Positions 36,068-52,264 of a stretch of 64,000 nucleotides of DNA are shown piece by piece. This DNA is from Micromonospora sicca (GTDB lineage Bacteria > Actinomycetota > Actinomycetes > Mycobacteriales > Micromonosporaceae). The position numbers and the translations under genes are program-made. The notes beneath the pieces are model-generated. The model worked only from the letters and a program-made list of their open reading frames with translations, ran no database searches and was not told where the DNA came from. Location: the NCBI RefSeq assembly GCF_003172935.1, contig NZ_QGKS01000254.1, positions 1-64,000 of the forward strand, written 5' to 3'. Position 1 is the first letter of the stretch; every line of letters starts with the position of its first letter.

Positions 36068-36833
36068 GCCCCGACGGTAGCGAAGTCGGGTGCCCGGTGT
36101 GGCCGAGACGAGTTCTTCGGCATGACCGGTGAACCTGCGATGAAGCAGGCAAGGTCCGTACAGCCACTGATCCTTAACGCACAGCCCTGCGGATACTTTC
36201 ACCAGGCAATATAGAGTGTCGTCGACTACTGTTAGTGCCGTTGGGTGCAGTTTGTTGCGATTCGGGGCGCGCCTGCTGGGTCTCCGCCCGGCGAAGTGCA
36301 AAACCGCAGGTCAAGGCCCATTCAAAGGCCGTTCGACGCTGTTGCTTGCGGCCCGCCTGCCGTTCAGCGCACACCGCTGCCGACACGCCGCTCCCCCATC
36401 GCCGGCTCAGCATCGATGGCACCTCCCTGGACGTCGCATCCCGAGCGCTGCCCGTCGCCATCTTCCAGTCCACGACGGCGATCAACCCGTGCCCGAGATG
36501 CGGCCACCACCACCGGGGACATCAGCCGGCGGTCCGACCGGTAGCCCGCTCGGGCCAGCACACCCGACGCTTCGTCCGGATCGGCCCGATCTGTCACGTA
36601 AAACCGGCGTGTTCGCCTTTGCGTGATGTTAGCTTTGCCTCCTGTTCATCCCGGTCCAAAGAGGCCGATTCGAACAATTCGGACATTCCATGCGAAATGG
36701 CTCACTGCCGCATGGGCATCACGGGGGAAGAGGGGCTGATGAGAGGTACAACGAATGTCGCCGGCGGCGGTAGAAGGGGGACCGACTTCGCATCGCGGAA
36801 AGGTCTGACGGCGCCCCGCGGAGAGGGGATCCG
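36068..36833. other. Long intergenic region upstream of the glycan operon
   Basis: These 766 bases are locally lower in GC than their neighbours (especially 36,590-36,720) and hold no gene with motif support. A plus-strand frame ending at 36,837 overlaps the glycosyltransferase start by 4 bases and contains CPRCGHHHRG, but most of it has no coding character. The promoter of the 14-kb operon downstream must be here or within the frame's end (ATG 36,739 is a possible short coupled ORF of 32 codons). Confidence 0.45.
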
Positions 36834-37763
36834 GTGACGCTGAACCGGGACATCGACACGCACGTCCCCAGCCTGCTGACCGCGCCGCCACGCACGGCAC
36901 CGTCGGAGCATGATGACCGGCCACTGAGCATCCTGCGGATGCGGGAACGGCCCGAGGGCGACGCCGGAGTGGTCAACGGTGGTCCCGGGCGAGAGACCGT
37001 GAGCGTGGTCATCCCAACGCTCAACGAGGAGAAGAACATCGCCTGGGTGCTCGAGCGCATGCCGCCGATCGTCAACGAGGTGGTTCTCGTCGACGGGCAC
37101 TCGTCGGACCGGACGGTCGAGGTCGCCCGCGCCATCCGGCCGGACATCGTGGTGCTGACGCAGAACTGCCGGGGCAAGGGTGACGCGGCGCGGGTGGCGT
37201 TCGCCGCGGCCACCGGCGACCTGATCGTCATGATCGACGCCGACGGCAGCATGGATCCCGCCGAGATCCACCGCTTCGTCACCCCGCTCATGAACGGCTA
37301 CGACTTCGTCAAGGGCTCCCGGTTCCTGACCGGCGGCGGATCGACCGACCTGACTCCACTGCGCCGCACCGGGAACCATATGCTGGTGCGGCTGACGAAC
37401 AGCTTCTTCCTCGTCCGCTTCACCGACCTGTGCTACGGCTTCCTTTCGTTCCGTCGCGACTGCCTGCAGGCGCTCGCTCTGACCGCGCACGGCTTCGAGA
37501 TCGAGACCGAACTCGTGGTCCACGCGCTGAAGGCGAACCTCCGCATCGCCGAGGTGCCGAGCACCGAACTCCCGCGCCGCTGCGGCACCTCCAACCTGCA
37601 CACCTTCCGGGACGGTCAGCGGGTGCTCCGAACCCTGATCCGCGAGCGGGTCGTCCGGCGCCCTCGACCGGTGGTGGACCCGATCGACCACCGCGTGCTG
37701 CACCGGTGGCAGCCCCCGGTCGCCGCACGGACCAGCCCGGCGCTGAGCGAGGTGACCCGATGA
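36834..37763 (+). CDS. Glycosyltransferase family 2 (DPM1/GtrB-like)
   Basis: A 309-residue enzyme; residues 55-270 form the GT-A domain: VSVVIPTLNEEKNIAWVLER, VNEVVLVDGHSSDRTVEVAR, and the metal-binding D-x-D in LIVMIDADGSMDPAEI. KGSRFLTGGGSTDLT and RFTDLCYGFLSFRR are typical of polyprenyl-phosphate glucose/mannose-type transferases, which make lipid-linked sugars for extracellular glycosylation. It lacks C-terminal membrane helices. The first 50 residues are a disordered-looking extension. It is the first gene of an 11-gene overlapping run; GTG 36834 overlaps a preceding frame, and its stop overlaps the next ATG. Confidence 0.85.
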   Translation: MTLNRDIDTHVPSLLTAPPRTAPSEHDDRPLSILRMRERPEGDAGVVNGGPGRETVSVVIPTLNEEKNIAWVLERMPPIVNEVVLVDGHSSDRTVEVARAIRPDIVVLTQNCRGKGDAARVAFAAATGDLIVMIDADGSMDPAEIHRFVTPLMNGYDFVKGSRFLTGGGSTDLTPLRRTGNHMLVRLTNSFFLVRFTDLCYGFLSFRRDCLQALALTAHGFEIETELVVHALKANLRIAEVPSTELPRRCGTSNLHTFRDGQRVLRTLIRERVVRRPRPVVDPIDHRVLHRWQPPVAARTSPALSEVTR

Positions 37764-39079
37764 GGAAGCGTGCACTGCGACGTGCTCCGGTGGTGCGCGG
37801 CTCCTACGCGCTCGCCGTGCTGCTGGGCCTGCTGTTCGGCGCCACCCCCGTGCCCACCGGGCTCGCCACGCCGGCCGGGGCGGCAACCGGCGACGTCGGC
37901 CTCCTCGGTCCGTCCACGTCCGGCGACGGCTCGGCGGCAACCGGTGAGAAGCCGGAGAGCAAGCTCTGGTGGAACGACGGCGCCTGGTGGGCGGTGCTGT
38001 TCCATACCGGCAGCCAGACCCACCACATATTCCGGCTCGACCGCTCCACCGGGCAGTGGGTCGACACCGGGACCATCGTCGACAACCGACCGAAGACCCG
38101 CTCCGACGTGCTGTGGGACGGCACCAGGCTCTATGTCTCCTCGCACGTCCGGGCCAGTTCCTCGACCGGCGCGACGTCCGGAAACCCGGCCCGGCTCTAC
38201 CGCTTCAGCTACGACGCCGCGACGAGGACCTACAGCCGCGACAGCGGCTTCCCGGTGCAGATCAGCAACTACTCCAGCGAGACCCTGACCATCGACAAGG
38301 ACTCGACGGGCCTGCTCTGGGCGACCTGGACGCAGGGCTCGAAGGTCTATGTGAACAACACGACGGGCGGGGACGCGGTCTGGGGCACGCCGTTCGTGCT
38401 CCCGGTCGCCGCCGCGGCCAACCTGTCCAGCGACGACATCTCGTCGGTGGTGAGCTTCGGCGGGACCGGGACCGGCGTGATGTGGAGCAACCAGGCGACG
38501 TCCGCGATGTACTTCGCCGAGCACACCGACGGCGCGCCGCGCTCCAGCTGGGACGTCACGCGTACGGCGATCCAGGGTCCGAACAGCGCCGACGACCACA
38601 TCAACCTCAAGGCGCTGCAGGCCGACGCCTCCGGACGGGTCTTCGCGGCCGTCAAGACCGGGCTCGACGACGCCGGCGCCTCGTCCGCGGCGCCGTTGAT
38701 CATGATCCTCGCCCGGGACCCGTCGACCGGCGACTGGTCCAGCTACCCGGTCGGCCGGATCAGGGACTGTCACACCCGGCCGGTCCTGCTGCTCGACTCC
38801 GAACATCAGACGCTGTACGTCTTCATGACCGCGCCGGACAGCGGGTGTCCCTACTCAGGCTACCCGGGAACGATCTTCATGAAGAGCTCCCCCATGGGCA
38901 GCATCGCCTTTCCCCTAGGCCGTGGCACCCCGGTCATCAGGGACGCCCTCTCGCCCAACATGAACAATGTGACGACCACCAAGCAGGACGTCACCAGCGC
39001 CACCGGCATGGTGGTCATGGCCAGCAACGACTCCACCCAGCGCTACTGGCACGCCGACCTGCGGCTGGGCTCGTCGTGA
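37760..39079 (+). CDS. Secreted beta-propeller-like protein
   Basis: A 439-residue exported protein. The signal peptide RKRALRRAPVVRGSYALAVL... ends near AGAATG (about residue 43). The mature part contains repeated motifs around W-aromatic turns (KLWWNDGAWWAVLFHTGS, SDVLWDGTRLYVSSHV, TGLLWATWTQGSKVYVN, GRVFAAVKTGLDD) spaced roughly 50-60 residues apart, as in a five- to seven-bladed propeller. No catalytic residues are obvious. Since it is coupled (ATGA) to a glycosyltransferase and a FemAB-like gene, it may bind or process the exported polymer. Role is inferred from context only. Confidence 0.7.
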   Translation: MRKRALRRAPVVRGSYALAVLLGLLFGATPVPTGLATPAGAATGDVGLLGPSTSGDGSAATGEKPESKLWWNDGAWWAVLFHTGSQTHHIFRLDRSTGQWVDTGTIVDNRPKTRSDVLWDGTRLYVSSHVRASSSTGATSGNPARLYRFSYDAATRTYSRDSGFPVQISNYSSETLTIDKDSTGLLWATWTQGSKVYVNNTTGGDAVWGTPFVLPVAAAANLSSDDISSVVSFGGTGTGVMWSNQATSAMYFAEHTDGAPRSSWDVTRTAIQGPNSADDHINLKALQADASGRVFAAVKTGLDDAGASSAAPLIMILARDPSTGDWSSYPVGRIRDCHTRPVLLLDSEHQTLYVFMTAPDSGCPYSGYPGTIFMKSSPMGSIAFPLGRGTPVIRDALSPNMNNVTTTKQDVTSATGMVVMASNDSTQRYWHADLRLGSS

Positions 39080-40185
39080 GCGCGGGGACCAGCCTCGAGC
39101 TCCGCCTCGGGCCGGCCCCCGGCGACCCGCGACCGCTGCGGGTGACGAGTCCGGCCCCAGCCGAGGCGTGGGAGCAGGTGCTCGCCTCCGCGCCGACCGC
39201 CCTGCCCAGCCAGACGCCGACCTGGCTCCGCTGCGTGTGCACGGTCGAAGGGTACGAGGACGTCTCGCGGCTCTACGAGACCGTCGACGGAAGGCGCCTC
39301 GTCCTTCCGCTGGTGCGACGCCCGGGGCTCGGCGCGATCCTCGCGACGGACTTCGGGCTCCCGGCCGGGTGGGGACCGGGCGGGCTGGTCTGCGACGGCG
39401 GTGAGCTCCGCCCGGAGGACGTCCGGTTGGTGGTCACCGACCTGGCGCAGCGGCGCGTGCTGAGCACCCTGGTCCGCCCCGACCCGGCGACGGCCGGGAC
39501 GTGGGACGCGGTGGTGCCGGCGAGCGTGCTGCGCGAGGAGCGGATGGCGCAGACCCTCTTCCTCGACGGCGGCTTCGACGAGGTCTGGCGGAAGCGGTTC
39601 CGCAGCGACACCCGCAACCGGATCCGCCGGGCGGAGCGGGCCGGCGTCGTCGTCGAGTGTGACGACAGCGGCCGCCTGGTCTCCGTCTTCCACCAGCTCT
39701 ACGGCCAGTCAGTCGACCGCTGGGCGCGGCGGGACCGCCTCCCGCTTCCGCTCGCCCGGCAGCTGGCGGCCCGGCGGGAGCCGCACCGGAAGCTGCGCAC
39801 CGTCGCCGACATGCTCGGCTCCCGGTGCCGGATCTACGCCGCGTACCACGAGGGACGCCCGGTGGCCGCGATAGTCGTGCTGCGCGGCGCGACCACCGCG
39901 ATGTACTGGCGCGGCGCGATGCTGGAACAGCTCGCCGGCCCCGTCTATGCCAACTACCTGCTGCACAGGACGGCGATCGCGGACGCGATCGAGGCCGGAT
40001 GCACGGCCTACAACATGGGCGACTCGGCCCGGGTCTCCTCCTTGGAGCTGTTCAAGAGCCGCTTCGGCGCCGTCAGCCAGGACTACGCCAGCTACCGGAT
40101 CGAGCGGGTGCCGATCACCCCGCTGGTTCAGCGCGCTCGCCGCGGCGTACGGCGGATCCTGGCGCTCCGGCCGGTGCGGGAGTAG
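39076..40185 (+). CDS. FemAB/GNAT-type acyl or aminoacyl transferase
   Basis: A 369-residue protein of the double-GNAT (FemAB-like, Acetyltransf_6) type. The N-terminal half has WEQVLASAPTALPSQTPTWLRC; the C-terminal GNAT domain has YAAYHEGRPVAAIVVLRGAT, MYWRGAMLEQLAGPVYANYL and AYNMGDSARVSSLELFKSRF, a pattern seen in proteins that modify sugars or peptides of surface polymers. The donor could be an acyl-CoA or aminoacyl-tRNA; I cannot decide. Starts with GTG 39076, overlapping the preceding stop (GTGA). The next gene starts 3 bases later. Confidence 0.8.
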   Translation: MSAGTSLELRLGPAPGDPRPLRVTSPAPAEAWEQVLASAPTALPSQTPTWLRCVCTVEGYEDVSRLYETVDGRRLVLPLVRRPGLGAILATDFGLPAGWGPGGLVCDGGELRPEDVRLVVTDLAQRRVLSTLVRPDPATAGTWDAVVPASVLREERMAQTLFLDGGFDEVWRKRFRSDTRNRIRRAERAGVVVECDDSGRLVSVFHQLYGQSVDRWARRDRLPLPLARQLAARREPHRKLRTVADMLGSRCRIYAAYHEGRPVAAIVVLRGATTAMYWRGAMLEQLAGPVYANYLLHRTAIADAIEAGCTAYNMGDSARVSSLELFKSRFGAVSQDYASYRIERVPITPLVQRARRGVRRILALRPVRE

Positions 40186-40188
40186 TGC

Positions 40189-41472
40189 ATGAGCCGTACA
40201 CCGCCTCGCTGGCCGGGACCGCTCCGACCGGCCGTCCTCCGCTGGCTGGTCCTTCCCGCGGCCCTGACCGCGATCACCCTCCTCGTGATCTCCAGCCGCC
40301 CCGCCCCGGACGCTTCCCACGGCGCCAGTCCCACACCGATCGGCGCCGACGCGGCCGGATACGACTGGTCAGCGCCACACGGCCACCGCCCCGACCCGCG
40401 CACCCTCTCCGTGGGCGTCACCCATACCCGGCACTCGGTCGACGACTGGGGCAGCGCACCGGCCATCGTCTCCGCCAAGGCCGTCCTCACCGCCACCGCC
40501 AGCTACCAGAACCAGCACATCTTCGGCTCGGGGACGGTGAACCCGCAGCCAAGCCCGGGAAAGTTCGACTGGTCCTCGTTGGACCGGCGGATGGCACTGA
40601 TCAGGTCCACCGCTGGCACCCCGGTCATCACGCTCTGCTGCGCGCCGGACTGGATGAAGGGTGGCCGCCCCGGGGAGACCAACTGGGACCGGCTGCACGT
40701 CGCGCCCCGGCCGGAGCACTACGCCGACTTCGCCGCGCTCGCCACGGCGGTCGCCCGGCGCTACCCCGACGTGCGGCACTTCCAGGTCTGGAACGAGATG
40801 AAGGAATTCTGGGACGCCACCCGCAACCGGCGGAACTACGAGGCCTACACCAACCTTTACAACACGGTGTACGACGCGCTCAAGGCGGTCGGTCCGACCC
40901 TCGCCGTCGGCGGTCCGTACGTCGTCATCGACATCTGGGCGAGCTCGAACACCGCCAGTCACCCGTCCGCCCTCGCCGGCGCCTGCGGGGTGGTCGACCA
41001 ACGGAGTCTCGCCGCCCTGCTGCACATGGCCGACCAGGGGGCGACGACGGCGTTGATCTGGGAACCCCAGGGCGACACCGACGAGACGCACGGACCCGCG
41101 CTCTGGAGCGCGACGGATGGCCACGGCGGGGGCCGTCCCCTCGCGTACGCGGAGGCGGTCGCCCGGTTGCAGCAGGTGCTCGCGGACCGCGCCGGGCCCG
41201 ACGCGGTCTCCTGGCCGGTGCCGGAGCTGGGCCTGGTCCGGGGCCGGGAGGGTGTCCTCCTGGTGCACACCGAGGACGACCGGATCGACCTGGAGGTGCA
41301 GGGCCGGCCGCTCCGCCTCGGGCCGTACGAGGTGCGATACGTCCCGCTGCGGACCGACACGCCGGTCGAGTTCACGTTCCCCGTCGCCCCCGGGTCGTCG
41401 GCGCCCGCCGTACCGGGGGCCATGTGCCTCCGCCCGGCCGCCGCGGCCACGCCGCTTCCGGAGGCACGATGA
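40189..41472 (+). CDS. GH39-like membrane-anchored glycosidase, probably lacking its nucleophile segment
   Basis: A 427-residue protein with an N-terminal signal anchor (about residues 15-35) and a TIM-barrel like GH39 enzymes: FGSGTVNPQPSPGKFDWSSL, TPVITLCCAPDWMKGG, and RHFQVWNEMKEFWDATRN, where the glutamate after Asn is the acid/base residue. After GPYVVIDIWASSNTASHP the usual stretch of roughly 100 residues with the second catalytic glutamate appears to be missing; the sequence jumps from VVDQRSLAALLH to ADQGATTALIWEPQGDTDET. It may thus be inactive or act as a binding protein. Within the operon, its job would be trimming or sensing the polymer. Confidence 0.7.
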   Translation: MSRTPPRWPGPLRPAVLRWLVLPAALTAITLLVISSRPAPDASHGASPTPIGADAAGYDWSAPHGHRPDPRTLSVGVTHTRHSVDDWGSAPAIVSAKAVLTATASYQNQHIFGSGTVNPQPSPGKFDWSSLDRRMALIRSTAGTPVITLCCAPDWMKGGRPGETNWDRLHVAPRPEHYADFAALATAVARRYPDVRHFQVWNEMKEFWDATRNRRNYEAYTNLYNTVYDALKAVGPTLAVGGPYVVIDIWASSNTASHPSALAGACGVVDQRSLAALLHMADQGATTALIWEPQGDTDETHGPALWSATDGHGGGRPLAYAEAVARLQQVLADRAGPDAVSWPVPELGLVRGREGVLLVHTEDDRIDLEVQGRPLRLGPYEVRYVPLRTDTPVEFTFPVAPGSSAPAVPGAMCLRPAAAATPLPEAR

Positions 41473-42770
41473 GCGGCGACGGCACGACCGTGGTGGCGGG
41501 CCACCGGGAACCGCCACGGCCGGCGGAACCGGCAACGGCCGCGCCCGGGCTCGCCCGGGCGGTGCTGGCCGGCCTCGACGGGGCCGGCGTGCGCTGGTGC
41601 CTGCTGCGCGGTGGTCCGGAGGCGCTCATCGCCCCCGGAGACCTGGACCTCCTGGTCGCGCCGGCCGATCTCGCGCGGGCCGTGGCCGTCATCGAGGCCC
41701 AGGGCCTGACCCGCCTGGCCGGTCACGGCCGGGGCAGTCACCGGTTCTTCCTCGGCCTGGACCCGGCCACCAACTCGTGGGTCGAACTCGACCTGGTGAC
41801 CGAGCTCGCCTACGGCCGTCACTTCGAGGTGCGCACCCTGGCCGCGGACCGGTGCCTGGGCCGCCGCGCACGTCAGGACGACGTGTGGGTGCTCGCGCCC
41901 GGGGACGAGTTCTGGGCGCTGCTGCTGCATTGCGTGCTCGACAAGGGCACCGTCGCCGGCCACCACCTCCGTCGGCTGCGACAGCTGGAGGACCACGCCA
42001 CGCTCGACGGTCCACTCGCCCGGGCGCTGCCGGACCGGGCGGCCCGGATGCTGCTGGCGTACTGGCGGGCCGGTCGCCCGGCGGCGCTGCGGGCCGTCCG
42101 TCGGCACCTGCTCACCGCCTGGTGGCGGGCCCGTCCGGCCAGCGCGGCCCGCCGGGTGGTCGGCTCGGCCGCCCTGCGTGCGATCGAGCGGCCGTTGCAG
42201 GCGTGGAGCCGTCGGGGTGTCAGCGTCGCCCTGATCGGCCCCGACGGATCGGGGAAGTCCACCCTGGCCGAGGGCATCGAGTCGACGTTCTACTTCCCGG
42301 TGCGCCGCGTCTACATGGGGCTTTGGCAGTCGAACGAGGCGCCGCGCGGCACCACCGAGCAGGCCGTCCGCATCCTGTTGCGCCCGTTCACCGTGTGGCG
42401 CCGCTACCTGGCGGCGCTGCGCCACCGGGCGCTGGGCCGGATGGTGGTCTTCGACCGCTACGTCTACGACGCCCTGCTGCCGCCGCGCGGGCCACTGGTC
42501 TGGCTCAAGCGGCCGTACTTCCAGCTGCTGAGCCGGCTCTGCCCGGCACCCGACGTGGTGCTGCTGCTGGACGTTCCTGGGTCGGTGATGTACCGCCGCT
42601 CCGGGGAATACGACCCCGAGCATCTCGAGGCGGAACGAGAGCAGTACCGGCGGTTGCGCCGGCGGATTCCCCACCTGGAACGCGTGGACGCCGACCGCGC
42701 GCCGGAACTGGTGCTCGCCGACGCGCTCGGCCGGATCTGGCGGCACTACCTCGAGCGGACGGCCCGGTGA
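41469..42770 (+). CDS. Nucleotidyltransferase-like / thymidylate-kinase-like fusion protein
   Basis: A 433-residue two-domain protein. The N-terminal part (about 25-200) resembles a nucleotidyltransferase fold: VRWCLLRGGPEALIAPGDLDLLVAP, where G-D-L-D is the metal-binding acid pair. The C-terminal half (about 250-430) is a P-loop kinase like thymidylate kinase: VALIGPDGSGKSTLAEGIES, VVFDRYVYDALLPP and DVVLLLDVPGSVMYRR. Such fusions recur in actinobacterial exopolysaccharide clusters; the substrates are not known to me. It is coupled by ATGA to the preceding gene and by GTGA to the following kinase-like gene. Confidence 0.78.
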   Translation: MSGDGTTVVAGHREPPRPAEPATAAPGLARAVLAGLDGAGVRWCLLRGGPEALIAPGDLDLLVAPADLARAVAVIEAQGLTRLAGHGRGSHRFFLGLDPATNSWVELDLVTELAYGRHFEVRTLAADRCLGRRARQDDVWVLAPGDEFWALLLHCVLDKGTVAGHHLRRLRQLEDHATLDGPLARALPDRAARMLLAYWRAGRPAALRAVRRHLLTAWWRARPASAARRVVGSAALRAIERPLQAWSRRGVSVALIGPDGSGKSTLAEGIESTFYFPVRRVYMGLWQSNEAPRGTTEQAVRILLRPFTVWRRYLAALRHRALGRMVVFDRYVYDALLPPRGPLVWLKRPYFQLLSRLCPAPDVVLLLDVPGSVMYRRSGEYDPEHLEAEREQYRRLRRRIPHLERVDADRAPELVLADALGRIWRHYLERTAR

Positions 42771-43810
42771 AGGTCGCGGTGCAGTGGGCGCAGCCGGTCC
42801 TGCGGGACCGACTCGCCTGCTGGCTGCACCGGCCCGAACGAAACTGGACCGCCACCGTCGCCCCCCGCCTGGTCGCCCGGGCGACCGCCACCGACGACAC
42901 CCGGTGGCGGACCGAGACCGTCGCCTTCACCAGCACGTCCGTCGCGGTGGCCACGGTCCGGGGCCGCGGGGCCGACGGACGCTACATGGTCAAGGTGCCC
43001 TGGACCGACCAGGCCGTCGACGGGCTGCGGCGCCAGGCCGAGGTGCTCGACGTGCTGCGGACGAACCCGCGCCTGCCCGGCCTGCGCCAGCTCCTGCCGT
43101 ACTGCGCGGCACAGGGAGAGATCGAGGGACGTTACTACTGCGTGGAGGAGGCGCTGCGCGGCGCTCCGGCGAACGGGATGATGCTGAGGCGTACCCGGCG
43201 CGCCGCGCTGCTCGCGTCCGCCAGCCGGGTCATCCGCAACCTCCACCTGCCCACCCGGGAACGGACCATGCTCGACCGGGCCGCCCTGGCGGAGTGGGTG
43301 GACGCCCCACTCCGGCGGCTGGAGGAGTTCGTCGCCACCCACCCGCGACCTGGCCGGCTCCTCGACACGGTCTGGCGGCTGCGGGAGGAACTCGTCGTCG
43401 CCCTCGTCGGCCGCACCGTGCACACCTCCTGGATCCACGGCGACTTCTGGCCTGGCAACCTGCTGGCCACCTCCCCAGCTGGGCAGGTGACCGGGATCGT
43501 CGACTGGGACCGGGCCGCACCCCGCCAACTCCCCCTGCACGACCTGCTACACCTGCACGTCCTCGCCCGCCGGCTCGCCCGCGGCGACGAACTCGGCGAG
43601 ATCGTCGTCCACGCGCTGCGGCACGGCCTCGACCGGACGCTCGATGTCCCCGCCGGCGAGGCGGCCGACTGGCTGGACGGCATCCCGCCACGACCGGCGC
43701 TGCTCCTCTACTGGATGCGCCACATCCTGCTGTTCATCGACTCGGAAGGTGACCATGACGATCCACGCTGGATCCGCGGCAACGTCGAGCGCGTCCTCGT
43801 CAACATCTGA
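42767..43810 (+). CDS. APH-family phosphotransferase in the glycan operon
   Basis: A 347-residue kinase of the aminoglycoside phosphotransferase superfamily. The N-lobe lysine is in YMVKVPWTDQ, the catalytic loop is SWIHGDFWPGNLL (about 223-235) and the metal motif is IVDWDRAAPRQLPLHDLLHL. In this context it more likely phosphorylates a sugar, alditol or lipid carrier of the polymer than a drug. Start GTG 42767 overlaps the preceding stop. Its last 56 bases overlap the start of the double glycosyltransferase gene. Confidence 0.78.
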   Translation: MKVAVQWAQPVLRDRLACWLHRPERNWTATVAPRLVARATATDDTRWRTETVAFTSTSVAVATVRGRGADGRYMVKVPWTDQAVDGLRRQAEVLDVLRTNPRLPGLRQLLPYCAAQGEIEGRYYCVEEALRGAPANGMMLRRTRRAALLASASRVIRNLHLPTRERTMLDRAALAEWVDAPLRRLEEFVATHPRPGRLLDTVWRLREELVVALVGRTVHTSWIHGDFWPGNLLATSPAGQVTGIVDWDRAAPRQLPLHDLLHLHVLARRLARGDELGEIVVHALRHGLDRTLDVPAGEAADWLDGIPPRPALLLYWMRHILLFIDSEGDHDDPRWIRGNVERVLVNI

Positions 43811-46130
43811 GGTGGTCGCCGTCCTCGGTCCGGAGGCGCCAGCGGGGCCCGGCCCGGCCCTGGCCGTGACCGTGGTCATCTGCGTCTACACCGAGCAGCG
43901 GTGGCCGCAGATCATCCGGGCGGTCGGCTCCGTGCTGGCGCAGGACGTACCGGCAGCACAGGTCGTCGTGGTCGTCGACCACAACCCGGCGCTGCTGGAG
44001 CGGGCGCGCGCCACTTTCCCGGAGCTGACCGTCGTGCCGAGCACCGGCCCGCGCGGCCTCTCGGCGGCCCGCAACACCGGGCTGGCCCAGGCGACCGGCG
44101 AGATCGTCGCCTTCCTAGACGACGACGCCGAGGCGGAGCCCGACTGGCTGGCACGGCTGCTGCCGCACTACCGGGACGGGCGGGTGCTCGCGGTCGGCGG
44201 CCACGCCGTACCGGCCTGGGAGGAGGAACGGCCGCGCTGGCTGCCCCCCGAATTCGACTGGGTCGTCGGGTGCAGCTTCACCGGCCAGCCCACCGAGGTC
44301 ACCCCCGTGCGCAACGTCATCGGCTGCAACATGTCCTTCCGCCGGTCGGTCCTGGACCGCACCGCCGGCTTCGACCCCGCGCTCGGCCGCGTCGGTCGCA
44401 CGCCGGTCGGCTGCGAGGAAACGGAGCTGTGCATCCGTATCCGGCAGCTCGAACCGGACGGCGTGGTGCTCCACGAGCCCGCGGCCCGGGTCCGGCACCG
44501 GGTCACCGTGGACCGGGCAACGTGGCGCTACTTTCGGCAGCGCTGCTTCTCCGAGGGGCGGTCCAAGGCCGTCGTCGCCCGGCTGGTCGGCGCGGACGCC
44601 GGGCTCGCCACCGAGCGCGCGTACACCCGCCGTACCCTCCCGGCCGGGGTGCGCCGCGGCCTGCGCCAGGTCCGCGACGGCGATCGCGCCGGACTGCTGC
44701 GGTCCGCCGCGATCGTCGCCGGCCTGCTGGTGACCGCCGCCGGGTACGTCTCGGCCCAGGCCCTGCGCGCCTCTCAGGCGGTCGGCACGCCGGTCCCCCG
44801 GCGCCGGGCGGGTCCGGCGCCGGTCCGGGTGCTCGCCGTCGAGCTCTCCGAGGGAATGCCCGACGTGCCCGACACGGGCGGGCCGGACGGCGCCCGGTAC
44901 GGCGCGGCGCAGGTCCTGGTCCGGCTGCACGGGCAGCCGCTCGGGCTGGTCGACGTCGCACTGCCGGCCGGCGGGCTGACCGCGCCGGCGCTCTCCGCCG
45001 CCATCCGGGCCCGCCTCTCCGCGGCGATCGACGAGCATCTGCTATACGACGGCCTGCCCACGCTCGACCCGCTGGATGCCGCCGCGGCCGGGGAGGCCGG
45101 CCTGGTCGCCGCCGGCGCCTCCTGCCGCTGCCACCCAGCGGTCGTGGAACCCGCCCCGTTCGTCAGCGTGGTCGTCCCCACGTGCGGACGCACGCCGCTC
45201 CTCGAGTCCACCCTCGACTCGCTCGCCGCGCTCGACTACCCCCACTACGAGATCGTCGTCGTCGACAACGCGCCGCAGGTCGCCGCCACCGCGCGGGTCG
45301 TCGCCGCGCGCGCCGCCGACGATCCCCGGCTCCGCTACACCAGCGAACCGCGACCCGGCGTCGCGCACGCCCGCAACCGAGGGCTGGCCGAGGCGCGGGG
45401 CGCGATCGTGGCCTTCGCCGACGATGACGTCACCCTCGACCGGGGGTGGCTGCGCAGCCTCGTCGACGGCTTCACCGGCGACGACGTCGCCGGGGTGACC
45501 GGTCAGGTCCTCGCCCGAAAGCTCGACACGCCGTCGCAGATCTGGCTGGAGCAGTACGGCGGTTATGGCAAGGGCTGCCAGCGGCGGCGATTCGACCGGG
45601 CCGGGTCCGCAACGCTCGACGCGGGGGGCGCGCGTCGCGTGGACCAGCCACCGCCGTCGCTCTACCCGTACCTGCCCGGATCGTACGGCTCCGGCGCCAA
45701 CATGGCGTTCCGCGCCGACGTCCTGCGCCGGCTGGGCGGGTTCGATCCCCGGCTGCGCACCGGGGAGGACATCGACGTGCTGCTGCGTACGGTACTGGCC
45801 GGCCACGTGTTGACGTACGAGCCGGGGGCCGTCGTGTGGCACACGCACCGCCGTGAGCTGCGGGCGCTGCGCCGGACGATGTTCCGGTACGGGGTCGGGC
45901 TGGGCGCCGTCATCACGAAGTGCCTGGCGGCCGATCCCACCGCCCGACGGGAGCTGCTCGGTCGGCTGCCCGGCGGCGTCGCCTACGCACTGCGGCCCGG
46001 GTCGGCGAGGAACGGCCGCAAGCAGGAGGGCTACCCGGCCTCGCTGACCGCCCTCGAGCTCTGCGGGCTGGCGCTCGGACCGGCCTACTACGCCGCCGCC
46101 GCGGCCCGATCCGGACGGAGCCGCAGATGA
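43755..46130 (+). CDS. Tandem glycosyltransferase family 2 protein
   Basis: A 791-residue protein with two GT2 domains. Domain 1 (about 35-300): VTVVICVYTEQRWPQIIRAV, GEIVAFLDDDAEAEPDWLAR, CNMSFRRSVLDRTAGFDP. Domain 2 (about 475-740): VSVVVPTCGRTPLLESTLDS, GAIVAFADDDVTLDRGWLRS, GANMAFRADVLRRLGGFDP. Both keep the D-D-D metal motif and the acceptor-site E-(E/D) (GCEETELCIR, TGEDIDVLLR), so both may be active and add two sugars in sequence, as in bifunctional polymerases. A linker of about 150 residues separates them. ATG 43755 is preferred (GGAAGG at 43,744-43,749). Confidence 0.85.
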   Translation: MTIHAGSAATSSASSSTSEVVAVLGPEAPAGPGPALAVTVVICVYTEQRWPQIIRAVGSVLAQDVPAAQVVVVVDHNPALLERARATFPELTVVPSTGPRGLSAARNTGLAQATGEIVAFLDDDAEAEPDWLARLLPHYRDGRVLAVGGHAVPAWEEERPRWLPPEFDWVVGCSFTGQPTEVTPVRNVIGCNMSFRRSVLDRTAGFDPALGRVGRTPVGCEETELCIRIRQLEPDGVVLHEPAARVRHRVTVDRATWRYFRQRCFSEGRSKAVVARLVGADAGLATERAYTRRTLPAGVRRGLRQVRDGDRAGLLRSAAIVAGLLVTAAGYVSAQALRASQAVGTPVPRRRAGPAPVRVLAVELSEGMPDVPDTGGPDGARYGAAQVLVRLHGQPLGLVDVALPAGGLTAPALSAAIRARLSAAIDEHLLYDGLPTLDPLDAAAAGEAGLVAAGASCRCHPAVVEPAPFVSVVVPTCGRTPLLESTLDSLAALDYPHYEIVVVDNAPQVAATARVVAARAADDPRLRYTSEPRPGVAHARNRGLAEARGAIVAFADDDVTLDRGWLRSLVDGFTGDDVAGVTGQVLARKLDTPSQIWLEQYGGYGKGCQRRRFDRAGSATLDAGGARRVDQPPPSLYPYLPGSYGSGANMAFRADVLRRLGGFDPRLRTGEDIDVLLRTVLAGHVLTYEPGAVVWHTHRRELRALRRTMFRYGVGLGAVITKCLAADPTARRELLGRLPGGVAYALRPGSARNGRKQEGYPASLTALELCGLALGPAYYAAAAARSGRSRR

Positions 46131-46990
46131 ACCGCGCACCGAAGACCGTCGTCCCCGTCCTCTGCTACCACAGCGTCGGCGACGTGCGCCGCGACGGCAC
46201 GCTGCGCTGGGCGGTGTCGCCGGGCGACTTCGACGAGCAGATGGCGCTGATCCGGGAGCGCGGGCGCACGCCGATGACGGCGAGCGGCTACGCGGCCGTG
46301 CTGCGCGGGCTGGCCCCGTTGCCGCCGCGACCGGTGCTGATCACCTTCGACGACGGCTTCCCCGACCTCGCCGAGGTCGCGCTGCCGGTGCTGCGCAGGC
46401 ACGGGCTCATGGCGACCGCGTACGTCATCGCCGCGCGGGTGGGCGTGGCACCGCCCTCGGACGGGGATCCGTCGCTCGACTGGGACCAGCTCCGCGAGCT
46501 GCACTCGCACGGGGTGGAGATCGGGTCGCACAGCCGGAGCCACCGCGCGCTCGACTGTCTACGCCCGTCCGAGCTGCATCAGGAGGTCGTGGGGAGCCGA
46601 CAGGTGCTGGAGGACGGAACGGGGACGTCGGTCCGGTCGTTGGCCTATCCGTACGGCTACCACAGCATCGCCGTGCGGACCGCGGTGCGCGCGGCCGGCT
46701 ACTCGTCCGCCTGCGGAGTCAAGAACGCGCTGAGCCACCCGGACGATGACGTCTTCGCCATCGCCCGGGTGCTGATCGAGCGGGAAACCGGGATCGCCGG
46801 GATCACGGCCCTGCTCGACGGCACCGGCTGGCCGCTGGCCTGGCGGGGCGAGCGGTGGCGCACCCGGGGTTGGCGGGCGTTCCGACGGGCCCGACACCTG
46901 GTTGCACGCCGCGCGCCCGCGACTGAGCCAGCCGACCTCGGGACGGCGGGGAGGAAGCACCGCGGGCGGGAAGGAGAGGTGACCCGATGA
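46127..46990 (+). CDS. Polysaccharide deacetylase (NodB homology)
   Basis: A 287-residue CE4 hydrolase. The catalytic base and metal aspartates are in LITFDDGFPDL (about 80), the metal-binding histidines in IGSHSRSHRALD (about 128-132), and the LAYPYGYHS segment matches motif 3. CE4 enzymes remove N-acetyl or O-acetyl groups from glycans. No signal peptide is evident, so it may act on the cytoplasmic side on a lipid-linked intermediate. Coupled by ATGA on both sides, it should be co-produced with the double glycosyltransferase and the flippase. Confidence 0.88.
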   Translation: MNRAPKTVVPVLCYHSVGDVRRDGTLRWAVSPGDFDEQMALIRERGRTPMTASGYAAVLRGLAPLPPRPVLITFDDGFPDLAEVALPVLRRHGLMATAYVIAARVGVAPPSDGDPSLDWDQLRELHSHGVEIGSHSRSHRALDCLRPSELHQEVVGSRQVLEDGTGTSVRSLAYPYGYHSIAVRTAVRAAGYSSACGVKNALSHPDDDVFAIARVLIERETGIAGITALLDGTGWPLAWRGERWRTRGWRAFRRARHLVARRAPATEPADLGTAGRKHRGREGEVTR

Positions 46991-48387
46991 GCGCCCCACG
47001 TGCCGGAACCGCGAACGCGTCGGTCGGTCCGGCGGCTGCCGGCGTCGGCACGGTCGCCGCGCCGATCGGCGTACGGCTGCGCCAACACCTGCGCGATCCG
47101 CTGAACAGCAACGTCTACGCGCTGATGCTCAACACGGCGGTGAGCTCGCTGCTCGGCATCGTGTACTGGGCTCTGGCGGCGCGCCTGTACTCCCCGGCCG
47201 AGTTGGGCATCGGCGCGGCGATGGTGTCGACGATGTCGTTCCTGAGCAACCTCTCCCAGCTCAATCTGAACGGTGCGCTCGCCCGCTTCCTGCCGAGGGC
47301 GGCGGAGCGGGGCGGCCGGCTGGTCGGCTACGCGTACGGGGCCAGCTGCCTCGCGGCGCTCGCCCTCAGTGCCGGTTTCCTGCTGCTCGCTCCCCTGGTT
47401 GCCGGCCGGTTCGACTTCCTGAACCGCACTCCCCTGCTCGCGGTGGCGTTCATCCTCTCCGTAGCCGGCTGGTGCATCTTCACCCTGCAGGACAGCGTGC
47501 TCACCGCCCTGCGCGGTGTGGTGTGGGTCCCGGTCGAGAACACCGCCTTCGGCATCCTCAAGATCGCGCTGCTGGTGCTGCTCGCCGGCGCCCTGCCCAG
47601 CCTGGGCATCTTCCTTTCCTGGAACCTGGCGGTCGTCGTCGCGCTCATCCCCGTCAACGTGCTGGTCTTCCGCCGGCTGCTGCCCCGACTGCGGGAGCGG
47701 GGTACGGCGGTCGCGCTGCCGGATCGCGGGGTGCTCGCCAGGTTCGTGGCGCTCGACTACGTCGGGTACCTCTTCCTGCAGGCCGGCACGAACGCCCTCC
47801 CGCTGATCGTGACCGCGCGGCTGGGCGCCGAGGCCAACGGCGTCTTCTACGTCGCCTGGCTGCTGGGCGGCTCCCTGGAGATGGTGGCGTACCACTTCGG
47901 CACCTCGCTGACCGTGGAGGCCTCCGCCGATGAGTCGCGGCTTCCGGCGTACGTGCGGCAGGTGCTGCGGCGCGGGCTGCTCCTCCTCGTACCGGCGGTC
48001 GTCCTGCTCTGCGTGTCGGCGCCGCTGCTGCTGACCCTCTTCGGCCGCGACTACGCGTCGAGCGGCGCGGACGTCCTGCGGCTCTCCGCCGTCGCGGTGC
48101 TGCCCAAGCTTCTGCTGATCGTCTTCGTCGCGGTGTCCCGGGTCCGGCGCAGGGTCGGTCGGATCATCGCGGTGCACGCGTCCGCGAGCGCCCTGGTCGT
48201 ATCGCTGTCGCTGGTCGCGATGGCCGAGATCGGGGTGACCGGGGTCGGCGTCGCGTACCTCGCCGGACAGCTCGTGGTGGCGGCCGCCGTTCTGCCGTCG
48301 ATGGTGCGGCTGCTGCGGGGCGTTGCGGGCGACGGGGTCGAAGAGGCCGGCGCCCACGTCACGACTGGTCTCTGGAGGCGTCGATGA
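46987..48387 (+). CDS. Wzx-type polysaccharide flippase (MATE/MOP superfamily)
   Basis: A 466-residue membrane protein with about 12 hydrophobic helices, beginning NSNVYALMLNTAVSSLLGIVYW and LYSPAELGIGAAMVSTMSFL, the usual N-terminal helices of the polysaccharide transporter family. LFGRDYASSGADVLRLSAVA before helix 11 is also typical. It should flip lipid-linked saccharide units across the membrane. In operon position between the deacetylase and the large membrane protein it supplies the export step. ATG 46987 overlaps the preceding stop; its stop overlaps the next ATG. Confidence 0.87.
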   Translation: MSAPRAGTANASVGPAAAGVGTVAAPIGVRLRQHLRDPLNSNVYALMLNTAVSSLLGIVYWALAARLYSPAELGIGAAMVSTMSFLSNLSQLNLNGALARFLPRAAERGGRLVGYAYGASCLAALALSAGFLLLAPLVAGRFDFLNRTPLLAVAFILSVAGWCIFTLQDSVLTALRGVVWVPVENTAFGILKIALLVLLAGALPSLGIFLSWNLAVVVALIPVNVLVFRRLLPRLRERGTAVALPDRGVLARFVALDYVGYLFLQAGTNALPLIVTARLGAEANGVFYVAWLLGGSLEMVAYHFGTSLTVEASADESRLPAYVRQVLRRGLLLLVPAVVLLCVSAPLLLTLFGRDYASSGADVLRLSAVAVLPKLLLIVFVAVSRVRRRVGRIIAVHASASALVVSLSLVAMAEIGVTGVGVAYLAGQLVVAAAVLPSMVRLLRGVAGDGVEEAGAHVTTGLWRRR

Positions 48388-50237
48388 CAAAGTTTCCTAA
48401 CCTGGTGTCCACAAAGCCACGCGGTGAGCTGGAGGACCTCGGTCAGCTGTCGTCCGCCGGCTCCGGTGTTGGCTCCGCCGGGCAGGCTTTCAGCACGGGG
48501 ATCGGCCCCCGATGGGGGTTTGCCGTCCAGGCCCTCGCCACCGTGCTTCTCGCCATAACACTGTGGATCATCGGCCTCCGGAACGTCGACCCCCGCGCCA
48601 TGACGGACATCGGTCTGGTCTCGCTCTTCACGGTGCCGATGATCGCAGCCCTGGTCGTTCTCGCCGTCGGGTTCTTTCGTGCGCTGCGACGTTCAGCCGC
48701 CGAGTGGCTCCTCGCCGTGCACCTGGTGGCGTTCATCGGCTTCATCCACGCGACCCCGGCCGCTCTGTTCGGGACGCTTCGATACGCCTGGGCGTGGAAG
48801 CACATCGGGATCATCGACTACATCCTGCGGACGGGGAGTGTCGACACGACGATCTCCAATCTGCCGGTGTACCACAGCTGGCCCGGATTCTTCGCCGGGA
48901 CCGCCCTGCTCACGGACATGGCGGACCGGTCATATCTACTGCCCTTGGCGACGTGGACGCAGTTGGCGTTCAACCTGTTCAACCTGCTGGCGGCCCGCTT
49001 CCTGATGCGCTCGATGACCGACGATCGCCGGGTGGTCTGGCTGGGGCTCTGGCTGTTCTTCCTGACGTCCTGGTTGGGCCTGGACTACTTCTCGCCGCAG
49101 GGCCTGGCGTTCCCGCTCTATCTGGTCCTGATGGGGCTGGTTCTGCGTGCCTTCCGACGCCGGCGAGCCGACGTAGTGGAGGTGGTCGCACCTCTCGCGG
49201 CCGCTATGAGAGTGCGGGCGGCTCTGCCGGTCATGGTCCTCATCATGGGAGTGATCGCCTCAAGCCATCAGATAACCCCGCTCATGATGGTGCTCGGGCT
49301 GCTCACGGTCTTCGGTTTCCGCAGAGCGCGAGGCTGGTACGTCCCCGTGCTGGCCGTGGGGCTGACAGTCGGGTGGGCGCTTGTCGTGGCCCGCGGCTAC
49401 ACGATCGACAACCTCAGCGGTCTGAACATCGGCGAGCCGGTGCAGAACGGCGTCGACACGCTCGAAAAGTCGGCGGACGTCCGTGACGGCCAGGTGCTGG
49501 TGAGCTACGCCGGGCGCTTCATCACAGCGGTGGGGCTGGCCGTGGCCGCGATCGGCATCTACCGGGCGAGGCGACGGCGCCGGCTCGACTCGGCCGCCCT
49601 GCTGCTGCTGCTCAGTCCGATGCTGCTGCTCGCCGTCACCGAATACGGCGGTGAGGTGCTCTTCCGGGTCATCCTGTTCACCGGCCCGTTCATGGCCTAC
49701 TTCGCCGCACTGGCGGTCTATCCCGACGCAACCGACCGGGCGCGGACTCGCCGGGTGGTGCTGGGCGGTCTCCTCACCGTGGCATTGCTGCCCGGATTTC
49801 TGCTGGCCTACTTCGGCAAGGACACGCAGAACTACTTCACGCCGGCAGAGGTGAGAACGACTGCGTGGTTGTACCAGAACGCGGAACCGAACTCCCTCAT
49901 CGTCGTCGGTTCGCGCAACTTTCCCCAGCGGTTCCGGAACTACGAGAAGCTCACCCATCTCTCGATAGCCAATGAGCCGCCGGAGAGCCGGGATCGGGTG
50001 CTGGCCGACCCGGCGGAGAGGCTGTCCCGGTGGCTTGCCGCCGGAACATCCGACAAGCCGAACTACATCCTGATAACGAGGGGCCAGAAGGTCGCCAACG
50101 ACCTGATCGGGCCCATGCCGGCGGGCTCCCTTGACCGGGTCGAACAGGCGCTCCGGGCGTCACCTCGCTTCCGGATCGTCGTAGACACGGGCGACGCCGT
50201 GGTCTTCACCCTGGCAGAGAACGGGAACGGCAGATGA
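48384..50237 (+). CDS. Large polytopic membrane protein, possible Wzy-like or GT39-like enzyme
   Basis: A 617-residue protein with about 12 helices between residues 45 and 480 and a C-terminal soluble domain of about 130 residues (QNYFTPAEVRTTAWLYQNAE, SRDRVLADPAERLSRWLAAG). The layout, with Y-H-S-W-P in the first long loop and LDYFSPQGLAFPLYLVLMG later, matches actinobacterial membrane proteins with polymerase or lipid-sugar glycosyltransferase roles. I cannot say which. As partner of a Wzx-type flippase it is the best candidate for the polymerase of this pathway. Confidence 0.65.
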   Translation: MTKFPNLVSTKPRGELEDLGQLSSAGSGVGSAGQAFSTGIGPRWGFAVQALATVLLAITLWIIGLRNVDPRAMTDIGLVSLFTVPMIAALVVLAVGFFRALRRSAAEWLLAVHLVAFIGFIHATPAALFGTLRYAWAWKHIGIIDYILRTGSVDTTISNLPVYHSWPGFFAGTALLTDMADRSYLLPLATWTQLAFNLFNLLAARFLMRSMTDDRRVVWLGLWLFFLTSWLGLDYFSPQGLAFPLYLVLMGLVLRAFRRRRADVVEVVAPLAAAMRVRAALPVMVLIMGVIASSHQITPLMMVLGLLTVFGFRRARGWYVPVLAVGLTVGWALVVARGYTIDNLSGLNIGEPVQNGVDTLEKSADVRDGQVLVSYAGRFITAVGLAVAAIGIYRARRRRRLDSAALLLLLSPMLLLAVTEYGGEVLFRVILFTGPFMAYFAALAVYPDATDRARTRRVVLGGLLTVALLPGFLLAYFGKDTQNYFTPAEVRTTAWLYQNAEPNSLIVVGSRNFPQRFRNYEKLTHLSIANEPPESRDRVLADPAERLSRWLAAGTSDKPNYILITRGQKVANDLIGPMPAGSLDRVEQALRASPRFRIVVDTGDAVVFTLAENGNGR

Positions 50238-50593
50238 TGCGACGTCTAGCACTGTCTTTCGTGGTCGTCGTCGCGACGGCGCTCACGACCGCGTTCGTGG
50301 TCTTCGGAGCCACCAGCCCGGCACGACTCCCGGTGGTGCTGGCCTTCGCCGTGGTGGTGCCCGGACTGGGTTGGGCATCGCGGCTCCGTCTCGCCGACGC
50401 CGCAGATACCTTGTCGATCGCCATCACAATCAGCCTCTGTCTCCTGGTCGTCGTCGGCGAGGGCATGGCCCTGCTGCGGCTCTGGTCCGTCGAGCGAGGA
50501 TTCCTTGTCCTGGCGGCTGTCGCTGTCCTCGGCGTCACACTCCCCCGCAGGGGCAACGACAACTCACCCGCGGGCGCGTCCAGGTCGGTCTGA
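50234..50593 (+). CDS. Small membrane protein at the end of the glycan operon
   Basis: A 119-residue protein with three hydrophobic segments at about residues 5-25, 32-50 and 60-100. No family recognised. ATG 50234 overlaps the preceding stop by 4 bases, so it belongs to the operon; it may assist the large membrane protein. The last residues RGNDNSPAGASRSV are hydrophilic. Confidence 0.65.
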   Translation: MMRRLALSFVVVVATALTTAFVVFGATSPARLPVVLAFAVVVPGLGWASRLRLADAADTLSIAITISLCLLVVVGEGMALLRLWSVERGFLVLAAVAVLGVTLPRRGNDNSPAGASRSV

Positions 50594-50638: not shown

Positions 50639-51475
50639 TCAGCGAAGGGCTGGCCTGATCTGGATGTAGTCGATGGCTAGCGACGCGGGGAATTGCGTCG
50701 AGTTGTTCGGAGAGCCGGGCCACCGACCGCCCACCGCCAGATTGGCCACGACGTACATAGGCTCGTCGGGCACCTCGTCGCCCTTGACCGTGAAGATCAG
50801 TTTTCCGTCGAGATACCAACGCAGCTTCCCCGGCAGCCACTCCAACCGGTAGACATGCCAGCCGTCCGCGAGGTCGGCGTTTCGCTCCGTGTGTGCGAGG
50901 GGCTCGCTCTTCCGATCCCGTCGGTGGAGTGACTGATAGCTCTTCCGCGTATTGCTGCCCAGCACTTCGACGATGTCGATTTCGGGTCGGGAGTCACGGA
51001 AGGCGGGGAGCATCCAGAGCGCGGACCAGAGGCCCTTCCCGGCCGGCACCCGAAGTCGAGCCTCGACCGCGCCGTAGGTGAACGCGAACCGCGGCTCGCC
51101 CCGCCGCTCCGAAGGACCGGAGCTGATCATCCCGGACCGGTACTGGAACCGTTCGCCGTCGGGGCTTTCGACGGGAACCGCCTCCGCGGTGAGGTACAGG
51201 ACCCCGTCCGCCACCGTCACCTGCGCCGGCTCGTACCACTGAAGCTCTTTGTTCGAGGCGATGGTGCATCCCCACCAGTGGCAGGTGCCCCAGGAGTCGG
51301 AGTCTAGCGACTCACCCTCGAAGCCGTCGGCGAGCGGCTGACTAGAGCTCTGCTCTATAGGTTCGGCAGGACCGCAGGAGGACTGTGGCCCCAACCCGAC
51401 AGCGACGACGAACAGTGCCATTCCCATGGCGATAAACCGGCGCCTAAACCGCAGCAATGGAGGAGGTGACTTCAC
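50639..51475 (-). CDS. GH16 family endoglucanase-like lipoprotein
   Basis: A secreted beta-glucanase of family GH16. The catalytic signature is SRPEIDIVEVLGSN (E-I-D-I-x-E), preceded by FTYGAVEARLRVPAGKGLWSALWMLP and followed by WHVYRLEWLPGKLRWYLDGK. The N-terminus has a hydrophobic stretch and QSSCGP, which could be a lipobox. GTG 51475 is given; ATG 51,436-51,430 region (MGMALFVVAVGLG) would give just the signal peptide, and an in-frame start at 51,541 exists. GH16 enzymes cut beta-1,3/1,4-glucans and related polymers. It is convergent with the glycan operon and could degrade or trim its product, or act on another polymer. Confidence 0.85.
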   Translation of the reverse strand: MKSPPPLLRFRRRFIAMGMALFVVAVGLGPQSSCGPAEPIEQSSSQPLADGFEGESLDSDSWGTCHWWGCTIASNKELQWYEPAQVTVADGVLYLTAEAVPVESPDGERFQYRSGMISSGPSERRGEPRFAFTYGAVEARLRVPAGKGLWSALWMLPAFRDSRPEIDIVEVLGSNTRKSYQSLHRRDRKSEPLAHTERNADLADGWHVYRLEWLPGKLRWYLDGKLIFTVKGDEVPDEPMYVVANLAVGGRWPGSPNNSTQFPASLAIDYIQIRPALR

Positions 51476-51541
51476 CGCTTCGTGATCACGCGGCTGCCTC
51501 TTGTGCCAGACTGCTACGCGGGTCCTGCGGAAAGACGTCAC

Positions 51542-51884
51542 TTGGCCAGGATAAACGTGGCATGCCCGACCTTCTGTTCACTTATCGGTTACCGGCTGCT
51601 CTTCGCGTTCGCCATCATCCTTCTCCAGCGGATCCACGATCTCAACTCGCCGAGTCTGGGCCCTGCTCCGGATCCTCGACATGGTCGCCGCGCCGCTGCT
51701 CGTCGCGTTCGTCATCATCATCCTCCAGCGGTTCCGCGACCTGAGCTGACGTCGCCCGGGCGACCCGTCGCGCCGCCGCAACGGTGCGAGCCGCGTGGCT
51801 CGCAACTCGACCCGTGGCTCGCCCGGGCCCTGGCCCCCCCGGCCGTCGGGCGACTCTCCCACTTCGTCCACCGCGCCATTCGCG
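51542..51884. other. Gene-free stretch between GH16 gene and tRNA array
   Basis: No standard gene. It holds two similar 48-base segments 100 bases apart (51,596-51,643 and 51,696-51,743) and the 23-base sequence shared with 27,634-27,656. The end of the tRNA array transcript should terminate here; a clear hairpin with T-run was not found. Confidence 0.5.
51596..51743 (+). repeat. Two imperfect 48-base direct repeats encoding hydrophobic peptides
   Basis: 51,596-51,643 and 51,696-51,743 are about 80% identical. On the plus strand they encode LLFAFAIILLQRIHDL and LLVAFVIIILQRFRDLS (stop), and nearly all differences are conservative hydrophobic changes. The second can start at ATG 51,681 (MVAAPLLVAF...). 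Neither has a clear ribosome binding site. Confidence 0.45.
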
Positions 51885-51959: not shown

Positions 51960-51973
51960 GTGAACACACTGCG

Positions 51974-52047: not shown

Positions 52048-52052
52048 TCGTG

Positions 52053-52124: not shown

Positions 52125-52157
52125 AAGGTTCCGCTCCGCCGTCGCGGATGCGGACCG

Positions 52158-52230: not shown

Positions 52231-52234
52231 GTAC

Positions 52235-52261: not shown

Positions 52262-52264
52262 GGT

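Follow-up and report, generated by a model that had tools for sequence, protein, structure and literature searches.

Organization of the operon

In this study, we analyzed a 64,000-nucleotide stretch of Micromonospora sicca DNA (contig NZ_QGKS01000254.1, positions 1 to 64,000), hereafter the window. It carries an operon of eleven genes, designated A to K, and a convergent GH16 hydrolase gene, which together point to the synthesis of a surface or extracellular glycan. Gene J encodes a large membrane protein and is predicted to be the enzyme that acts at the outer face. The features of the locus are as follows:

36172 to 36833, + strand: upstream region, likely promoter or leader, in DNA common to operon-bearing relatives
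36834 to 37763, + strand: gene A, AglJ/DPM1-like GT2 enzyme (PF00535, TIGR04182), proposed priming enzyme
37760 to 39079, + strand: gene B, secreted beta-propeller-like protein (weak model with propeller fold matches; no Pfam match)
39076 to 40185, + strand: gene C, FemAB/GNAT-type transferase (PF13480, PF02388)
40189 to 41472, + strand: gene D, GH39-like protein with a 78-residue internal deletion, probably inactive (Pfam, alignment)
41469 to 42770, + strand: gene E, fusion of an NTP_transf_5-like and a thymidylate-kinase-like part (Pfam, profile against PDB)
42767 to 43810, + strand: gene F, APH-type kinase with HGDFWPGN and DWD (Pfam, motifs)
43812 to 46130, + strand: gene G, two GT2 domains, N half AglG-like and C half MftF-like (Pfam/NCBIfam)
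46127 to 46990, + strand: gene H, CE4 polysaccharide deacetylase with TFDDG and HSRSH (Pfam, motifs)
46987 to 48387, + strand: gene I, Wzx-type flippase (PF01943), with the left joint of the putative swapped block at about 48322
48384 to 50237, + strand: gene J, predicted GT-C membrane glycosyltransferase of oligosaccharyltransferase-like fold (AlphaFold model), proposed polymerase or ligase
50234 to 50593, + strand: gene K, small membrane protein after J, with relatives that resemble DUF1616 (aligned set)
50639 to 51541, - strand: GH16 hydrolase with EIDIVE (family scan), assigned to the swapped block (third-codon-position G+C content, GC3)
51666 to 51749, + strand: remnant of the 3' end of a small twelfth gene (27 codons and stop; intact copies in relatives), right joint of the putative swapped block

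An earlier note on this DNA had described an eleven-gene coupled operon with 4-base overlaps and a convergent GH16 gene. The coordinates confirmed this, as eight of the ten junctions overlap by 4 bases (A/B, B/C, D/E, E/F, G/H, H/I, I/J and J/K); C/D and F/G are separated by gaps of 3 bases and 1 base, respectively. The gene labels in the note were supported by Pfam and NCBIfam outside three genes: B and K had no Pfam match and J had chance-level matches only. Gene I matched PF01943 at 28.2 bits, exactly the cut-off of 28.2. The expected short motifs were found in A, E, F, G, H and the GH16 protein. Both the gene families and the GT-C fold of J lend good support to the reading as a surface or extracellular glycan operon. 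Family scans found no nucleotide-sugar synthesis families among the eleven genes, in agreement with the same note, and no match to Wzz.

The J family and its predicted fold

Relatives of J were collected by a profile-guided scan of named genomes, which gave at least 586 among at least 594 candidate stretches, and the best 80 were kept. These belong to Actinomycetota, Chloroflexota, Deinococcota, Alphaproteobacteria, a Zixibacteria metagenome-assembled genome (MAG), a Doudnabacteria MAG and others. In the 55 long J loci (at least 19.5 kb), the neighbors of J included a Wzx-like protein in 51, CE4 in 47, GH16 in 32, APH in 21 and FemAB in 18. No Pfam family matched more than one of 46 aligned members. 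J and its 45 relatives matched no Wzy or O-antigen ligase family of Pfam (E 0.1), nor did they match PF02516 or the Alg6_Alg8 families, and a sequence search of J against PDB gave no match. A canonical Wzy was considered as an identity for J and was dropped, as it had no Pfam support across the 46 members. Searches of open-licence PubMed Central (PMC) papers turned up no account of either the J family or the present operon.

Structure prediction of the unassigned members had been suggested in the earlier note, and it was informative for J; the model of B was too weak to name a family. The AlphaFold model of J was confident, with a predicted local distance difference test (pLDDT) score of 89.8 and a predicted template modeling (pTM) score of 0.89. 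Its clear matches in Foldseek and VIA-align were GT-C enzymes. The best match was yeast STT3 (Z 23.1 over 433 residues, root-mean-square deviation 5.2), and archaeal AglB (Z 19.4 over 460 residues), AftA (Z 18.9), PglB (Z 17.6) and ArnT (Z 16.8) were also found. A viral structure library gave one match below 0.001, to an unnamed protein. Sixteen residues are invariant in the 46 sequences, and by our reading of the helix limits of the model 15 of them lie at the outer face, P435 being the exception. The share of K and R is 20.9% in the inner loops and 5.3% in the outer loops. Oligosaccharyltransferases of the STT3/AglB/PglB type carry a WWDYG motif, and no WWDYG-like pattern was present in any of the 46 J sequences. 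Because of these fold matches, the outer-face position of the invariant residues, the loop charge and the missing WWDYG, J is probably a GT-C enzyme that acts outside the cell and is not a standard N-oligosaccharyltransferase.

The similarity to STT3, AglB and PglB in predicted fold and orientation raises the possibility of protein glycosylation, in which J would be an oligosaccharyltransferase moving a lipid-linked glycan onto proteins. Fold comparison places STT3 and AglB near the top for J (433-474 residues), and the isolated C-terminal domain of AglB (3vu0) also matches J weakly (Z 6.7). However, J differs from these enzymes in having neither a sequence-family match, PF02516 included, nor the WWDYG motif, which is missing in 46 of 46 sequences. 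The frequent CE4 and GH16 neighbors, together with the GH16 fusions described below, better fit a polymer. We therefore regard protein glycosylation as very unlikely.

AglJ-like and AglG-like partners of J

Gene A is the best match to the AglJ profile in the genome (about 156 bits, against 116.1 for the next), and its nearest solved relative is a dolichol monophosphate mannose synthase. The N half of G scored 216 bits with the AglG profile, and the best place in the genome outside G scored 41.8. We examined whether such genes accompany J. All 16 J-bearing genomes contained A-like genes, compared to 2 of the 20 J-lacking ones (Fisher p 4e-8), and genes like the N half of G (G-N) occurred in all 16 and in 1 of the 20 (Fisher p 2e-9); the 20 J-lacking genomes comprise every negative for which a name was given, all from the same genus, order or class, with 359 more unlisted, and are not a random sample. 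Both A-like and G-N-like genes were present in 11 of 11 J-bearing genomes of the order or class of the window, and in 12 of the 16 J-bearing genomes no more than 20 kb separated A from J. In the long J loci, a strong A (at least 100 bits) was present in 36 of 55, a strong G-N (at least 150 bits) in 33, and both in 31.

In Haloferax, AglJ adds the first sugar to dolichyl phosphate and AglG then adds glucuronic acid, and AepG performs a like step for an archaeal exopolysaccharide, according to one report (PMC9943897). Since A and G are the best AglJ and AglG matches of the genome, and in view of these haloarchaeal roles, we propose that A may prime and G may extend the glycan unit.

The earlier note had stated that no initiating enzyme is present. 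A search with a profile built from the four PF02397-type proteins of the genome found none of this type in the window, and this part of the statement stood; however, A resembles AglJ, which is a starter enzyme. With the same profile, L143 was the one locus with an initiator among the 80 named J loci, and L045 the one among 32 other loci; 25 of the 80 J loci are shorter than 19.5 kb, so that an initiator could sit beyond their ends. No MraY/WecA-type enzyme was found in the J loci by a single-sequence query with the only PF00953 protein of the genome.

These data bear on an ordinary Wzx/Wzy pathway, in which a pyrophosphate-linked unit would be started by a PF02397-type enzyme encoded elsewhere, A and G would just extend it, and J would be an unusual Wzy. 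The Wzx-type protein I and the four PF02397-type proteins of the genome are consistent with it, as is the imp cluster of Actinoplanes, which its authors interpreted as Wzx/Wzy with an Alg6_Alg8-type Wzy candidate (PMC12691653). The flippase and the presumed joining of units at the outer face are also common to the operon and Wzx/Wzy exopolysaccharide pathways. In contrast, 79 of the 80 J loci had no nearby PF02397-type initiator, and the J-bearing genomes had A-like genes in all 16 cases. None of the 46 J proteins matched a Wzy or O-antigen ligase family, and the operon differs from such pathways in that no Wzy-family protein, Wzz or local phosphoglycosyl transferase was found in it. We consider this explanation fairly unlikely.

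K and GH16 beside J

A K-like open reading frame (ORF), defined as one following J with at most 260 residues and at least two predicted membrane helices, was found in 46 of the 80 loci, and it overlaps J by 4 bases in 37 of these 46. The contig stops at J in two loci. The window K was aligned with 30 of the 46, and the 16 omitted were mostly near-duplicates or long. DUF1616 was matched by 14 of the 31 aligned proteins at E of at most 1 (best 1.1e-6), and the window K matched none. A DUF1616 protein is listed as a glycoprotein in one report (PMC8241124). GtrA was absent from the families matched by the 31 K proteins (E 1), and GtrA was thus rejected as an identity for K.

Among alpha-proteobacterial J loci, a K-like ORF was found in 1 of 14 (L093, 248 bases off). 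The K-less loci (L090, L092, L101, L105, L107, L111, L113, L115, L116, L117, L118, L122 and L153) come from Aminobacter, Shinella, Ensifer, Mesorhizobium, Devosia, Sinorhizobium and other genera. In L115, J is followed by a longer ORF with three predicted helices.

We also scanned eight longer ORFs that follow J. GH16 lay inside four of them (L124, L134, L145 and L149), and the N-terminal part of the L149 ORF resembles DUF1616 weakly. Since J, K and GH16 are adjacent and the ORF in the place of K can be fused into GH16, GH16 appears to be tied to J and K.

The small membrane protein adjoining J also raises the possibility of a side branch, in which A would make a polyprenyl-phosphate sugar, K would flip it and J would add it to a polymer made by other genes, as in GtrB/GtrA/GtrC-like systems. 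The operon resembles GtrABC in having a DPM1-like GT2, a small membrane protein and a GT-C enzyme, and the fold of J is also similar to those of ArnT and AftA. However, the operon differs in that K, like all 31 aligned K proteins, has no GtrA match, and in that it contains a Wzx-type protein. A K-like ORF is lacking in 13 of the 14 alpha-proteobacterial J loci, a Wzx-like protein is present in 51 of the 55 long J loci, and where these loci hold a strong A, a strong G-N accompanies it in 31 of 36 cases. Such a side branch is therefore unlikely.

Distribution in the genus and probable replacement of the J-K-GH16 end

A synteny search, which the earlier note had suggested, was performed within the genus. 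Full-length E was found in 8 of 160 genomes, including that of the window, with identical gene order. In the seven others (of 159), E is 82-90% identical, and three further genus genomes had short weak matches. The gene order is retained in all seven relatives up to contig limits, and the best-segment protein identity of A-C and E-I is 80-92%. A-C were seen in six of the seven and J likewise in six, as the contigs read do not reach A-C in G010 or J-K in G092. More distant J-bearing clusters are present in two further genus genomes (G037 and G081).

We next compared the 3' part of the operon. The DNA shared with all seven relatives ends at 48315-48322, within the 3' end of I. J of the six relatives is 83-90% identical over the last 600 residues, whereas the window J is 32-33% identical to these six over the last 600 residues and 28-30% by best segment. 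GC3 is 0.853 in J, 0.800 in K and 0.797 in the GH16 gene, compared to 0.903-0.946 in A-I. A small gene downstream is intact in six relatives (70 residues/codons), and the window copy retains the last 27 codons and the stop, with no start. Because the shared DNA stops in I, J is divergent, GC3 falls and a stub of the twelfth gene remains, J-K-GH16 most likely entered as a single block that replaced an older end of J, K and the small gene. J, K and a convergent GH16 gene are also consecutive in L096, a Chloroflexota MAG that in addition has B, E and F together with I and the C half of G. As the other six J genes are 83-90% alike, one replacement in the lineage of the window suffices, and repeated, serotype-like swapping of J is not supported.

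The DNA common with relatives begins upstream of A, between 36172 (G048) and 36573 (G085). In operon-free sites, homology is lost at 36094 (G010) and 36144 (G032). In G010, which has the operon on another contig, window positions 36094 and 51966 are just 570 bases apart, and in G032, positions 36144 and 52041 are separated by 2.4 kb with the operon absent there. Among the stretches read, only G057 and G092 shared DNA of at least 250 bases outside the operon, in pieces of window 30.8-32.2 kb. The RtcB gene beside the operon has a match of at least 82% identity in 59 of 61 genus genomes, twice in pieces. Since RtcB is present in almost all of these genomes and operon-free sites exist, the flank appears to be old, and the operon at its present spot is most simply explained as an insertion.

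The gene for the RtcB RNA ligase (52265-53530) is embedded among seven tRNA genes that form an array (window 51884-53877), and tRNA genes near RtcB were also seen in seven other genus stretches scanned (L069-L075). At window 53800-53877, ARAGORN gave a tRNA with a four-base anticodon (ccaa), and L069 has tRNA-Trp (cca) at the matching place. The tRNA/RtcB cluster is adjoined at window 54216-55250 (- strand) by the ORF of a TnpB-type transposon protein, whose TNB domain is Cas12f1-like.

Genes B, D, E and F

Compared to D of G085, G091 and G010, the window D lacks 78 residues in frame, including PIWWSEFHVG, a segment that presumably holds the GH39 nucleophile. GH39 enzymes have two catalytic glutamates. 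D lacks the full pair, as WNE is kept (residue 201) and the WWSEFHV segment of the three relatives is gone. D is therefore probably inactive in the window, and an active GH39 was rejected as its identity in view of the loss of the likely nucleophile segment. G117, G048 and G057 have no D, and all that is left in G092 is a 34-residue remnant. Since D is shortened in the window and lost or a remnant in these four relatives, it seems dispensable.

Genes B, D and E were each found in one locus among the 55 long J loci and are rare additions. The model of B was weak (pLDDT 53) and was built from two sequences. Its top Foldseek matches were the glycoside hydrolase BT3686 and a PL25 ulvan lyase, and its top VIA-align matches were fucose lectins and sialidases. 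This weak model hints at a beta-propeller-like protein, and naming the family of B was dropped. Sequence searches of B against PDB gave no match. CBM96 was present in two of the four B homologues scanned, F5/8C in another, and Ig- or cadherin-like domains in the fourth.

The kinase half of E groups with thymidylate kinases (2.4e-11, 14-sequence profile against PDB). In a phylum sample, 7 of the 395 other genomes held relatives of full E length, all outside the class of the window, and 14 more of these genomes had partial, weaker matches. E and B occur near each other in L158 (5674-10773) and L159 (9362-12776), where no J was matched, and they may thus form a module of their own. In L044 (4698-6224) and L156 (5714-7171), a second E copy stands beside a more typical one, and both its P-loop and its nucleotidyltransferase motif are degenerate, which suggests a non-catalytic partner. 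The earlier note had proposed a phosphorylated building block from the kinase-rich composition, and our data neither supported nor refuted this. As E and F were matched in 1 and 33 of 80 related loci, respectively, they are not part of the core.

A proposed pathway and its comparison with known systems

Taken together, we propose that the operon makes an extracellular or wall-linked heteropolysaccharide, a proposal to which we give an even chance. In this scheme, A would prime the pathway by loading polyprenyl monophosphate with a sugar. A second sugar, perhaps a uronic acid, would be added by the AglG-like half of G, and the other half of G would extend the unit further. C may modify the unit, and I (Wzx) would flip it. 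At the outer face, J (GT-C) and its small partner K would join units into a polymer or onto an acceptor, and H (CE4) would deacetylate and GH16 trim the product. All enzymatic steps and sugars are inferred, and what the analysis showed comprises the gene set, its co-occurrence, the predicted fold of J, the position of its conserved residues and the replacement of J-K-GH16.

Several observations weigh against this scheme. A and G are below the equivalog cut-offs for AglJ (TIGR04182, 155.9 of 325 bits) and AglG (NF041394, 266.8 of 440 bits), and both profiles pick up GT2 proteins in 14 of 14 control genomes as well. Neither a strong A nor a strong G-N was nearby in 17 of the 55 long J loci. The four PF02397-type initiators, which lie elsewhere in the genome, could act in trans. 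WWDYG is missing from J, in which we also did not see the acidic residue that the first outer loop usually carries. The shared fold of J does not show its function, and ArnT and AftA, which have a similar GT-C fold, add single sugars.

Compared to the haloarchaeal Agl and AepG pathways, as far as these are covered by the available text, the operon is similar in its AglJ/AglG-type GT2 enzymes, a putative outside-acting enzyme of oligosaccharyltransferase fold and a lipid carrier, presumably polyprenyl phosphate. It differs from the Agl pathway in being bacterial, in the unmet equivalog cut-offs, in a J without WWDYG, and in the added CE4, GH16, FemAB and kinase genes. By this analogy, we infer that the operon may work like an Agl pathway feeding a Wzx-type route, with the oligosaccharyltransferase-fold enzyme in the place of the polymerase or ligase.

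The imp cluster of Actinoplanes missouriensis appears to be the best experimental analogue found, judging from the accessible parts of its descriptions. It is responsible for the sporangium matrix polysaccharide, and its deletions alter sporangia and matrix (PMC12691653, PMC13390465). Features in common with the operon are a Wzx-type protein, a GT2 enzyme, a candidate polymerase, which in imp is of the Alg6_Alg8 type, a further membrane protein without a known domain and an adjoining hydrolase gene, gimB (PMC12691653, PMC13390465). Unlike the operon, it has three GT4 enzymes, and the accessible descriptions, on which this comparison is based, do not name CE4, FemAB, APH or E. The candidate polymerases also differ, as that of imp is described as Alg6_Alg8-type and J and its 45 relatives match no Alg6_Alg8 family.

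More broadly, the operon could be a bacterial counterpart of the archaeal dolichyl-phosphate pathway that makes a polysaccharide in place of a glycoprotein, with AglJ/AglG-type units built on polyprenyl monophosphate. The J family, usually with K, would then be a non-Wzy class of polymerase, exchangeable as a cassette and spread across Actinomycetota, Chloroflexota, Deinococcota and Alphaproteobacteria as well as a small number of other groups. We put this wider view forward tentatively, as a possibility.

J represents a large, widespread family of membrane enzymes without a Pfam model, and it would gain a testable role as polymerase or ligase if this view is true. Many bacteria would then assemble surface polysaccharides with the starting and finishing enzyme types of archaeal protein glycosylation, which may answer how clusters without an initiating phosphoglycosyl transferase and Wzy work. 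The replaced J-K-GH16 end beside a core conserved at 80-92% offers a natural experiment on what the outer-face enzyme decides.

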